A DNA stretch of 64,000 nt from Candidatus Aminicenantota bacterium (GTDB lineage: Bacteria > Acidobacteriota > Aminicenantia > Aminicenantales > Aminicenantaceae). Every line of letters begins with the position of its first letter. Position 1 is the first letter of the stretch. The notes under the pieces are model-generated. The model saw only the letters and a list, made by a program, of their open reading frames with translations. It searched no databases and was not told the origin of the DNA. Both the position numbers and the translations under genes were made by a program. The stretch spans positions 77,893 to 141,892 of the forward strand of contig WVZL01000032.1 in the NCBI GenBank assembly GCA_011772495.1, read 5' to 3'. Shown here in pieces: positions 3,131 through 24,353 of this stretch.

Positions 3131-4087
3131 ATGCGAGTACTAGTCACAGGAATAACCGGATTCGCTGGAAGCCATTTGGCGGATTATATTCTTCAGAACC
3201 AACCAGGAGTTGAAGTCCATGGAATGGTTCGCTGGAGAAGCAGGCTGGAGAACATTCTCCATCTGAAGGAAAAGATAAAGCTTCATGAGGCTGATTTAAA
3301 GGATATTGTTTCCTTGAAAAAATGTCTGGAAGAAGTGGAGCCTGATCGCATTTTTCATCTAGCAGCCCAGAGTTTTGTGCCGACCTCCTGGAGATGCCCT
3401 GCTGAGACTTTCACTATCAACGCCGTAGGGCAGATTAATCTTTTTGAGGCCGTACTATCTCTTAAACTTTCTCCCAAGATTCATGTGGCTGGTTCCAGTG
3501 AGGAATATGGATTGACCCACCCTGAGGAGATGCCTATGAAGGAAACAAATCCCCTGAGGCCGCTGAGTCCTTATGCGGTCAGCAAAGTGGCCCAAGATTT
3601 TTTAGCTTTCCAGTATTTTAAAAGCTATGGTTTAAAGACAGTCAGGACCAGAGGTTTTAATCATACAGGCCCCCGCCGGGGTGAAGTCTTCATCTGTTCA
3701 TCCTTTGCCAAGCAGATCGCAGAGATTGAGAAGAAGAAACAAAAGTCAGTTATTTCTGTCGGCAACTTGGAGGCCAAAAGAGATTTTACCGATGTCCGAG
3801 ATACCGTTCGTGCTTACTGGCTTGGCTTGGAAAAGGGAGAAGAAGGGGAGGTCTATAATATAGGAAGCGGGAAATCTTACTCGATGCAAGAAGTCCTGGA
3901 CATGCTTCTTTCCATGGCCTCGATCAACATTAAAGTCGAGGTGGATCCGGCCAGGCTAAGACCTTCTGATGTTCCCATACTGATGTCCGACTGTACCAAA
4001 TTCACTCAGCTAACTGGCTGGGAGCCTAAGATTCCTTTCCAACAGTCGCTCCAGGACTTGCTGGATTACTGGAGAGAAAGGATTTGA
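3131..4087 (+). CDS. NAD-dependent epimerase/dehydratase (GDP-mannose 4,6-dehydratase / GDP-6-deoxy-mannose reductase-like)
   Basis: Rossmann TGITGFAGSHLADY; SPYAVSKVAQD; GNLEAKRDFTDVRD typical of the GMD/RMD family. Confidence 0.85.
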   Translation: MRVLVTGITGFAGSHLADYILQNQPGVEVHGMVRWRSRLENILHLKEKIKLHEADLKDIVSLKKCLEEVEPDRIFHLAAQSFVPTSWRCPAETFTINAVGQINLFEAVLSLKLSPKIHVAGSSEEYGLTHPEEMPMKETNPLRPLSPYAVSKVAQDFLAFQYFKSYGLKTVRTRGFNHTGPRRGEVFICSSFAKQIAEIEKKKQKSVISVGNLEAKRDFTDVRDTVRAYWLGLEKGEEGEVYNIGSGKSYSMQEVLDMLLSMASINIKVEVDPARLRPSDVPILMSDCTKFTQLTGWEPKIPFQQSLQDLLDYWRERI

Positions 4088-16492: not shown

Positions 16493-16552
16493 AATTTAGG
16501 CTCTAGATGTTTATTAAATTATAAAAAAGCAGAGGCTTGATTGTCAATAAAA

Positions 16553-16706
16553 GGCTCAGGCTAAGTGTTTCGAAAACACTCTGGCTTTCCCCAGCGAGGA
16601 AAGCCAGCTCGATTCATCCTTCACTCTTCTCTCCTTCGGAGAGAAACCATGCCCGCTCAATCTTCATACGGTTTTCTCATCACTTAGCCTTCGCCTGGCT
16701 AAAAAA
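16553..16706. ncRNA. Candidate structured RNA or leader with mutually exclusive helices (strand unknown)
   Basis: P1 AGGCTAAGTG 16558-16567 / CACTTAGCCT 16681-16690; P2 AGTGTTT/AAACACT; P3 CTGGCTTTCC 16581-16590 / GGAAAGCCAG 16598-16607; P4 TTCTCTCC 16627-16634 / GGAGAGAA 16638-16645; P6 TTAGCC/GGCTAA. Confidence 0.45.
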
Positions 16707-20993: not shown

Positions 20994-22097
20994 GTGAAGG
21001 TGGAGGATAGCCGAAAATATTGGGTTGCTTTCAACCTCGTTTTCGCCGAGAATTTAAAGTCAGCGAAAAAAATATATGAGCGTTTTCCTTCTCTGGAGGA
21101 AGTTTTTAAGACAGGGAAAGAAACGCTCCGTTCTTTAGGCGCCAGCGAAGAGCAGGCTCAGAGAGCTGTTGCTCCCGGGATCCTCGATCAAGCTTCGAGA
21201 GAGATCGAGCGGCTGGAGAGAAAAGATTATACTCTACTGACTCTAAAGGGTAAGGAATATCCAGAGTATCTGAGAGAAATATTCGATCCTCCCTACGTTA
21301 TTTATTGTGCAGGGAATGTGGATGTATTGAAGGAACCGGCTGTTTCCATCGTGGGGGCGCGAAAGCCGACCCCTTACGGCAGAGCTGTGGCAGAGAAGCT
21401 GGCCGAAGATTTAGCCTCGCGCGGCTTGGTTATCGTAAGCGGCATGGCCCGGGGCATTGATTCTATAGCTCATTGGGGAGCCTTGAAAGGAGGAAAGACC
21501 TTAGCTGTGTTAGGTTCAGGGCTTGAAAACATCTATCCTAGAGAGAATAGATCTCTGTTCGAAAAAATCAAAGACGAGGGGGCTGTGATCTCCGAGTTTC
21601 CTCTTAAAGCTCCGCCCCTGGGCTTTCACTTTCCTATCCGGAACAGGATCATCAGTGGTCTTTCGCAGGCGGTAGTAGTAGTGGAAGCAGCTCGAAGAAG
21701 TGGTTCGTTGATTTCAGCTCGTTTAGCCTTGGAGCAGAACAGGGAAGTGATGGCTGTTCCTGGTGCTGTGACCTCTGATTTTAGCCAGGGGACGAACTGG
21801 TTGATAAAGACCGGCGCCAAATTAGTTGAGAACTGGGTAGATGTGGCTGAGGAGCTTCGCTCTCCCTTGAAAGAAAAGCTGTTATCACAGAAAGAGGAAA
21901 AGAAGAGTATGCCGGCTCTCAAACCAGAGGAAAAAAGAGTCTTTGAGTTTCTTAAGATAGATTCCCTCACTCATATTGATGAGCTGGTTGGGAAGACAGA
22001 TCTTTCAGTTTCAGAACTACTGGCCATACTGCTCAATTTGGAGCTGAAAGAGCTAATCATGCAAAATCCGGGAAAATATTTTCAGAGGAGAAAGTGA
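20994..22097 (+). CDS. dprA: DNA processing protein DprA
   Basis: VSIVGARKPTPYGRAVAEKLAEDLASRGLVIVSGMARGIDSIAHWGAL...RSGSLISARLALEQNREVMAVPG; GTG start. Confidence 0.95.
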   Translation: MKVEDSRKYWVAFNLVFAENLKSAKKIYERFPSLEEVFKTGKETLRSLGASEEQAQRAVAPGILDQASREIERLERKDYTLLTLKGKEYPEYLREIFDPPYVIYCAGNVDVLKEPAVSIVGARKPTPYGRAVAEKLAEDLASRGLVIVSGMARGIDSIAHWGALKGGKTLAVLGSGLENIYPRENRSLFEKIKDEGAVISEFPLKAPPLGFHFPIRNRIISGLSQAVVVVEAARRSGSLISARLALEQNREVMAVPGAVTSDFSQGTNWLIKTGAKLVENWVDVAEELRSPLKEKLLSQKEEKKSMPALKPEEKRVFEFLKIDSLTHIDELVGKTDLSVSELLAILLNLELKELIMQNPGKYFQRRK

Positions 22098-24353
22098 ATG
22101 CAGAAGTCTCTAGTCATTGTTGAGTCTCCTGCCAAGGCTAAGACGGTTAATCGCTACTTAGGCTCTGGCTATCTGGTTAAAGCCTCCATGGGTCATATCA
22201 GAGACCTACCCAAAAAGAAGCTGGGAGTTGAAATCGAGAATGATTTTAAGCCTGAGTATAAGATCATTCCGGAGAAGAAAAAAATTGTGACTGAGCTCCA
22301 AAAATGGGCCAAGAAGTGCGACTCCGTCGTCTTGGCTGCTGACCCAGACAGAGAAGGAGAAGCTATCTGCTGGCATTTGAGTCACCTATTGAAGAACGCG
22401 AATAAGAATATCTATCGTGTCCTCCTTCACGAGATAACCAAAAAAGCAGTCACAGAGGCTTTTAAGAATTTAGGAGAACTCGATCAGAATAAGATAAGAA
22501 CCCAGCAGACACGTAGAATTCTCGATAGATTGGTCGGTTACCTGATCAGCCCCTTGCTTTGGAAGAAAATAGGAAGAGGATTGAGTGCGGGGAGAGTCCA
22601 GTCTGTGGCTCTGCGGTTGATAAGCGAACGGGAAAAGGAAATAAAGGATTTTGTTTCAGAGGAATATTGGACAATTGCAGCTCATCTCCAGGCCGCCAAC
22701 CCTCCTCCGTTTAAAGCTGCCTTGACGAAGATTGAAGGTCAGAAAGCCAAGATTGAAGACGGCAAAAAAGCTGAGGAGATAGTCGGAGAACTCCAGAAAG
22801 CCCCCTTCATTCTCAAAGGGGTAAAAGTCGAGGAAAAGAAGAAAAATCCCTATCCTCCCTATATAACCAGTACTCTTCAGCAGGACGCCTTTCGCTTCCT
22901 GCGTTTTCCTGTTAAAAGGACCATGAGCATTGCCCAAAGGTTGTATGAGGGGCTTGATATCGGAGACCGAGGATCGGTGGGGCTGATCACTTACATGAGG
23001 ACAGACTCAGTACGCGTGTCTAACTTGGCCATTTCTTTAGCGAGAAAATATATCGAGAAGAATTATCCCCCTGAATATCTCCCTGACAAGGCACGCGTTT
23101 TCAAGAACAAGCGAAAAGCCCAAGATGCTCATGAAGCCATCCGGCCTACGTCCTTTGACCTTTCTCCTGAAGAGGTAAAGCCTTATTTGAAAAAAGAGGA
23201 ATACAGCCTCTACAATCTGATCTGGAAAAGGTTTTTAGCCACTCAGATGAGTTCAGCTGTAGTGGAAGAATCCGAGTTTGAAATCGAGGCTTCCAAATAT
23301 CTGTTTAAAGCAAAGGGAGAGGTCATGAAATTTGACGGCTTCTTGACCCTTTTCCCTAAGCCCAAGAAAGAAGAAGACATCTTGCCCAAGGTTACAGAGG
23401 GAGAGGAGCTGACATTGCTGGAGCTGGAGCCCAAGCAAAATTTTACCCAGCCTCCTCCTCGTTTCACCGAAGGAAGCCTAGTTAAAGAGTTGGAGGCTAA
23501 AGGCATCGGTCGGCCGAGTACTTATGCTCCCATCATCGCCACCTTGCAGGATCGAGTTTATGTGGTCAAAGAAAAGGGGAGATTTATTCCCACTGATCTC
23601 GGGCTTTTCGTCACGGATTATTTGGTCAAGACTTTTCCTGATTTGATGGAACTCAAATTTACGGCTCGGATGGAAGAGGAGCTGGACCGTATCAGTGAAG
23701 GTGAGCAGGATTGGGTAGATGCGCTAAGAAAGTATTATGAGCGTCTTGACCGGGACTTAAAACAGGGTATGGAGGCTGAAGGCTTTAAGAAGAAAGGGAT
23801 TCCTCTGGATGAAACTTGTCCCCGCTGCGAACGGCAACTGGTCATCAAGGATGGGCGCTATGGAAGATTTGTGGCCTGCTCCGGCTATCCGGACTGCGAA
23901 TATAAAGGAAGCCTCCAAAAGAAGGAAGCCGAGCCCTTGGAAGAGAAATGTCCTCGGTGCGGAAATCAATTGGTTGTCAGATATGGAAAATACGGCAGTT
24001 TTATTGCCTGTTCCAATTATCCCCAGTGCACTTATACTAAAAAAGAAAGTCGCGATACGGGAATTCCGTGCCCTAGGAGTTGCGGAGGCAAAATCCTGAG
24101 AAAAAAAACAAGAAAAGGGAAGATATTTTTTGGCTGCGGCAATTATCCCCAGTGTGATTTTGCCACCTGGGATGAGCCGGTCAAACAGCCCTGTCCGGAA
24201 TGCAGCCGTGAATTTGTTCTCCGCAAGAGTCCAATAAAAGGGGATTCTTATCTTTACTGCAGTAATGAGGAATGCAGCTATAAAGAAATGACCGAGAAGA
24301 AGAAGATCTGGGAGAAAGAACCCACCCCTGGCGGGGAAGAAGATTCGCTATAA
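22098..24353 (+). CDS. topA: DNA topoisomerase I with four C-terminal zinc ribbons
   Basis: SLVIVESPAKAKTVNRYLG; YMRTDSVR; GRPSTYAPII; four CPxC...C..C zinc-ribbon repeats. Confidence 0.97.
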   Translation: MQKSLVIVESPAKAKTVNRYLGSGYLVKASMGHIRDLPKKKLGVEIENDFKPEYKIIPEKKKIVTELQKWAKKCDSVVLAADPDREGEAICWHLSHLLKNANKNIYRVLLHEITKKAVTEAFKNLGELDQNKIRTQQTRRILDRLVGYLISPLLWKKIGRGLSAGRVQSVALRLISEREKEIKDFVSEEYWTIAAHLQAANPPPFKAALTKIEGQKAKIEDGKKAEEIVGELQKAPFILKGVKVEEKKKNPYPPYITSTLQQDAFRFLRFPVKRTMSIAQRLYEGLDIGDRGSVGLITYMRTDSVRVSNLAISLARKYIEKNYPPEYLPDKARVFKNKRKAQDAHEAIRPTSFDLSPEEVKPYLKKEEYSLYNLIWKRFLATQMSSAVVEESEFEIEASKYLFKAKGEVMKFDGFLTLFPKPKKEEDILPKVTEGEELTLLELEPKQNFTQPPPRFTEGSLVKELEAKGIGRPSTYAPIIATLQDRVYVVKEKGRFIPTDLGLFVTDYLVKTFPDLMELKFTARMEEELDRISEGEQDWVDALRKYYERLDRDLKQGMEAEGFKKKGIPLDETCPRCERQLVIKDGRYGRFVACSGYPDCEYKGSLQKKEAEPLEEKCPRCGNQLVVRYGKYGSFIACSNYPQCTYTKKESRDTGIPCPRSCGGKILRKKTRKGKIFFGCGNYPQCDFATWDEPVKQPCPECSREFVLRKSPIKGDSYLYCSNEECSYKEMTEKKKIWEKEPTPGGEEDSL

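Follow-up and report, generated by a model that had tools for sequence, protein, structure and literature searches.

A probable MITE-like mobile element with a conserved five-helix fold in Aminicenantes and other uncultured bacteria

Introduction

Bacterial MITEs, among them Correia/NEMIS, ERIC/IRU, RUP and the Rickettsia palindromic elements, include elements with stable transcripts and are mostly described in reviews as simple long stem-loops found in single lineages (PMC2229807, PMC10969869). A second set of high-copy intergenic palindromes comprises the REP/BIME sequences found with RAYT, of which the REPs measure 20-40 bp (PMC3733652).

The window considered here is a stretch of 64,000 nucleotides from a Candidatus Aminicenantota bacterium (contig WVZL01000032.1, positions 77,893 to 141,892). 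In our reading, to which we assign a probability of roughly four in five, its positions 16552-16696 (minus strand) are one copy of a non-autonomous MITE-like mobile element that has a conserved five-helix fold, is moved in trans and acts through this fold in single-stranded form. The element shares with MITEs a small size (about 100-300 bp), the lack of genes, a dispersed intergenic distribution and inverted ends, as well as the occurrence of filled and empty sites with target duplication, and stably folding transcripts would be expected of both. What sets it apart from the reviewed MITEs, as these are mostly described (PMC2229807, PMC10969869), is a core of several helices in which the loop motifs are near-invariant and compensatory change extends over several phyla; this core has been found inside terminal repeats of at least three kinds.

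The element copy in the window

The whole copy is read on the minus strand from 16696 to 16552, a symmetrical unit of about 145 nt delimited by 26-nt inverted arms (AGGCTCAGGCTAAGTGTTTCGAAAAC at 16552-16577 and GTTTTCTCATCACTTAGCCTTCGCCT at 16671-16696) that are separated by 93 nt, and its outer ends, AGGC...GCCT, are those seen in copies elsewhere. Covariance model R2 matches positions 16554-16694 with an E value of 7e-36, the model itself having been built from the window copy and related ones. Within the arms, the 5' strand of P1 (16681-16690, CACTTAGCCT) pairs with its 3' strand (16558-16567, AGGCTAAGTG), an inverted repeat with strong covariation across copies, and in P2 of the model the strand GAAAAC (16671-16676) pairs with GTTTTC (16572-16577), a helix covered by the covariation alignment in which 91.5% of cells are paired among 77 copies. 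Further inward on the same strand are found the near-invariant core motif GAGCGGGCATGG (16647-16658), which lies in the interval between P3 and P4 and is kept in nearly all copies from several phyla; the P4 hairpin (16627-16645), with perfect 8-bp arms (16627-16634/16638-16645), a 3-nt loop and covariation; a second conserved motif (16621-16626), which reads GAGTGA in the window copy and GAGCGA in most others; and the P5 hairpin (16581-16607), a perfect 10-bp inverted repeat (16581-16590/16598-16607) that shows covariation and carries the conserved loop CCTCGCTGGGG (16589-16599). In the overall arrangement, P1 and model P2 form a closing stem, P3 encloses the GAGCGGGCAYGG core together with the P4 hairpin, and P5 carries the CUCGCUGGGG loop.

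An earlier note on this DNA, made from its letters alone, had proposed a structured RNA candidate of no recognised family at this locus. Every stem that it named was located where it had been placed, and a 181-nt stretch containing them outperforms all 200 dinucleotide shuffles in folding on both strands (z -4.1 and -3.9). Searches of Rfam at curated and relaxed thresholds, using the window and 16 related loci, likewise yielded chance matches only, and no description of the element was found in literature searches. As regards structure, the massive covariation found among relatives supports the proposal far more strongly than the note could have known.

Conservation of the fold

Covariation was assessed with a model of 40 pairs, distributed among P1 (14), P2 (6), P3 (4), P4 (7) and P5 (9). 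In 23 aligned copies, whose alignment was not fitted to the structure, 80% of cells are paired and 30 of the 40 pairs are altered on both sides; the covariation score of 0.321 compares with 0.133 in shuffled alignments, is reached by none of 500 shuffles, and falls to 0.152 or less when partners are slid. Across 77 copies from several phyla, 86.6% of cells are paired, both-side changes are present in 39 of the 40 pairs and the score is 0.699; this larger alignment, having been fitted to the model, is biased in its favor, yet the shuffled (0.170) and slid (at most 0.114) controls remain far below. P3 is the weakest helix (80% paired in the 77 copies), and on inspection it seems badly paired in certain Aminicenantes subfamilies, with the window copy among the cases. 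Three motifs are near-invariant, namely GAGCGGGCAYGG, GAGCGA and the P5-loop motif CUCGCUGGGG. The stems are genuine, and the fold is maintained through compensatory change.

Two further observations concern the interior of the fold. Base pairing of the core with the P5 loop, which had been suspected, was set aside, the wider set of copies holding no informative variation. In a pair of orthologous copies from two congeners (L244 and L277), the flanks of which are 97% identical, the P4 stems read CCTCTCC/GGAGAGG and CCTCGAG/CTCGAGG, each perfectly paired, a difference that reflects either compensatory change or gene conversion.

The earlier note had left the strand ambiguous, and this ambiguity is now largely, if not conclusively, resolved. 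In an alignment of 78 copies, cells with G-U outnumber those with A-C by 104 to 51 when read on the window minus strand, and this surplus suggests that the minus strand is probably the one that folds. The 23-copy alignment gives the opposite balance (25 to 45), which is ascribed to misplacement of P1 in an alignment made without structure, just 61% of P1 cells being paired there. A single DNA strand, if folded, would yield the same bias, with G-T in place of G-U, as would an RNA.

Distribution and mobility

At least three copies of the element are present in the genome of origin (3.28 Mb), in which a DNA search found four places (the window, one copy of 82% identity and two partial copies) and covariance models found three. 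Among 60 relatives, the element was detected in 36 by DNA match and in 39 by model R2. Two of these relatives hold at least 53 copies each, and true counts may be higher given that all 53 scored candidates were positive; looser scoring of selected genomes gave 63, 36, 28, 20, 6 and 3 copies. Among the GTDB matches listed, the core pattern occurs in contigs titled Aminicenantes, Omnitrophota, WOR-3 and several Patescibacteria lineages, and a small number of bins bear the titles Actinobacteria and Clostridiales; the titles of bins may be wrong. No copy was found in a scan of viral contigs for the core pattern or in a DNA search of plasmids and phages. In one Parcubacteria contig (L107), inverted copies at 183-327 and 3694-3853 flank a dprA-topA pair; the dprA-topA pair of the window (20994-24353) has no element copies.

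Several lines of evidence indicate that these copies have moved. Firstly, of eight genomes examined, seven have copies that match one another at 83-93% identity and one, a Patescibacteria genome, has copies that match at 70%, as compared to 63% between genomes; the flanks of copies in one genome are unrelated. Secondly, ten element loci of genome G003 were set against their counterparts in the congeners G021 and G031, in which matching flanks are 92-98% identical, one weak match excepted. An intact core is missing from all ten orthologous regions of G021; remnants persist in the form of half an element (L277), a short fragment (L283) and one end (L275), and at L278 the core is missing between two ATCA repeats with one arm left. 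At one locus (L236 of G003, L021 of G021) the element is present in both genomes. Thirdly, locus L235 carries a clean 291-bp insert with the ends CCCAGGAGCTCCCC/GGGGAGTCCCTGGT relative to an empty site in G031 (L272), and AAACT, which is single in the empty site, stands on both sides of the insert, a 5-bp target duplication. This is the one insertion with a clean duplication, the other sites being empty or degraded without a readable one. In the window copy, no long terminal repeats are present outside the closing-stem arms, and the evidence from empty sites comes from other loci.

The element has several of the features by which a MITE is recognized: it is short, has no coding capacity and exists in many dispersed copies, terminal inverted repeats bound it in several Aminicenantes groups, and in one clean case an occupied site with its target duplication can be compared with the empty site. 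Taken together, these data establish that copies are dispersed and have been recently gained or lost, with no gene consistently linked to them.

Genomic context

The earlier note had further proposed mutually exclusive helices, of the kind typical of riboswitches or attenuators, in which P1 competes with two local hairpins (P2 and P6 of its own numbering). A switch of this kind would control one of the divergent neighbors, a gene for an SH3-domain protein on the minus strand and one for a DUF1573 protein on the plus strand. Both local hairpins do exist in the window copy (-6.4 and -7.2 kcal/mol, respectively), and the majority of copies are situated 5' of one gene or more. The alternative hairpins are not, however, conserved: across 112 copies, those homologous to this P6 and P2 come to -4.0 and -3.8 kcal/mol, near the shuffled values of -3.5 and -3.3, whereas P1 duplexes reach -16.1 as compared to -7.4 kcal/mol for shuffled sequences. 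In the window copy, similarly, the full fold has a predicted energy of -65.6 kcal/mol versus -49.3 with local pairs alone, such that the P1 fold is better by approximately 16 kcal/mol. When the minus strand is read, the A7/T7 run next to P6 of the note falls on the 5' side of this hairpin, and the plus strand has a run of A residues there; the hairpin is therefore no terminator on either strand.

The surroundings of the copies do not favor a switch either. A consensus promoter of the SH3-domain gene, TTGACA-18-TATAAT, matches at 12 of 12 positions at 16518-16547 (minus strand), where 0.6 promoter-like sites would be expected in shuffled sequence at a threshold of 9 of 12. Reading from 16547 to 16518, it begins just past the element, which, if this promoter is used, places the element outside the leader of that gene. 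A search of genome contigs for relatives of the SH3 protein gave none. Among 109 copies with a gene called on each side, both neighbors run opposite to the RNA strand in 41, the upstream one is opposite and the downstream one on the same strand in 32, both are on the same strand in 29 and the genes converge in seven; these gene calls are crude, being longest open reading frames. The spread indicates no fixed gene orientation, although copies are rare between convergent genes, and neither a shared gene class nor a fixed sense position in a leader was found. With Rfam also lacking a match, the riboswitch or attenuator reading is largely refuted, and we now give it almost no credence; the element is not a switch of its two flanking genes.

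A TTGAC...TATAAT-like promoter often lies 3' of the element in the RNA sense, as in the window (16518-16547) and at L097, L164, L022 and L042. Counted by copy, promoter-like matches number 13 outward downstream, four outward upstream, one inward upstream and none reverse downstream. Promoters beside the element could reflect a target preference or a promoter part borne by the element.

Modular ends and nested copies

The same core is found in different genomes inside three longer types of inverted repeat, AAGCATCTCCATTTCCGTGAT, GGTTTTGGGAAATAGC and GGAGTTCCCCCATTTTT, the first two of which sometimes occur together on one element. Repeats that combine such ends with a different interior are present in the genome of the window. 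The outer stem is prolonged in Omnitrophota as TTAGCGGGT/ACCCGCTAA, with matching changes that are specific to individual copies. At three loci (L152, L145 and L109), a complete copy is inverted within an older copy that has lost its interior.

Additional observations were made on these arrangements. In the doublets (L152:2943-3183, L145:2953-3192, L109:1939-2181 and probably one at L164), the older interior was lost at nearly the same points, and a spacer of 18-21 nt separates the loop of the older copy from the inner one. A second family of imperfect palindromes is present on contig C25 of the window genome (L228, L229 and L230), with the ends GGTTTTGGGAAATAGC and AAGCATCTCC... and variable interiors, some with the RNA core and some with GGGGTCAG-type palindromes. 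Short palindromes of the AAAAAGGGGACA and GGGGTCAGG types lie within element loops or replace them (L027, L099, L136, L003 and L004) and behave as if they prefer hairpin tips. Two candidates were discarded: a widely spaced pair of end repeats, considered as the boundaries of a full transposon (L225), turned out to consist of short repeats flanking ordinary genes, and an apparent site shared by two families (L016/L032) has one flank alone in common.

The search for a driver

An all-against-all comparison of open reading frames around copies revealed no widely recurring protein family, and those clusters that were inspected resemble housekeeping proteins. No autonomous relative was identified, and no transposase was found between those end-repeat pairs that were examined. 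The earlier note had named identification as a degraded mobile element or a group II intron remnant as grounds against its proposal. A mobile element it is, with a window copy that is not degraded; a group II intron or retron finds no support, RVT_1 being absent from five carrier genomes in which controls were positive and Rfam offering no match.

Large structured RNAs that are dispersed and occur in many gene-less copies, as this element does, are known from the HEARO/OMEGA RNAs of IscB elements. It is conceivable that a comparable RNA-guided or ribozyme-type system, in which the RNA core works with an unlinked nuclease or transposase and drives its own spread, operates here: the RNA-like core is large and conserved with near-invariant loops, copy number is high, most copies are gene-less, elements that differ in their ends have this core in common, and copies are repeatedly nested in copies. 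We nevertheless regard this as unlikely, as there is no HEARO match in Rfam, no linked protein family, and, unlike in the HEARO/OMEGA systems (Rfam HEARO; PMC9755519), no IscB-type gene nearby and no RRXRR match in five carrier genomes, where the control search was equally silent and the result is uninformative.

IS200-type transposition does not fit a 5-bp target duplication with inverted ends. This misfit bears on a further alternative, namely that the element is a REP/BIME-like palindrome moved on single-stranded DNA by Y1 (RAYT/IS200-type) transposases. Y1 transposases are indeed present in 46 of the 60 relatives, other palindromic repeats are common next to and within copies, and a folded DNA strand would likewise give a G-T wobble on one strand. 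Y1 is, however, about as frequent in genomes that carry the element (30 of 39) as in those that lack it (16 of 21), four genomes holding 12-18 copies (G005, G029, G050 and G053) lack a Y1 match, and none of six Y1 loci checked has a copy nearby. The fold also differs, at about 145 nt with several helices and no association with Y1 genes, from the high-copy intergenic REP/BIME palindromes that it otherwise resembles (PMC3733652, PMC12306157). We therefore deem this alternative very improbable, and drivers of the reverse transcriptase and Y1 types are unsupported. The most economical guess is that an inverted-end DDE-type transposase acts in trans.

Perspective

Under the preferred reading of a non-autonomous MITE-like element, an enzyme encoded elsewhere would move the copies in trans, and the fold would be kept for action in single-stranded form, either as a transcript or as a strand exposed in replication or transposition. 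Its role may be that of a recognition signal, of host protection, for instance by making insertions near promoters tolerable, or of a trans-acting RNA. A bolder proposition, and one that we consider rather unlikely, is that Aminicenantes, Omnitrophota and Patescibacteria harbor a hitherto undescribed class of mobile element that needs a complex RNA (ribozyme- or guide-like) together with a protein for its spread or upkeep, and that this RNA core was captured by several elements whose ends differ.

Small gene-less repeats of bacteria are usually simple hairpins of one lineage, whereas the fold described here has multiple helices, reaches up to dozens of copies per genome, extends over several phyla of uncultured bacteria and has no counterpart in Rfam. 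These features raise the question of which protein recognizes the core, and of whether the fold drives mobility or protects the host. The element would add a family of structured RNA, or of structured single-stranded DNA, and would provide an abundant mobile marker for the genomes of its hosts.
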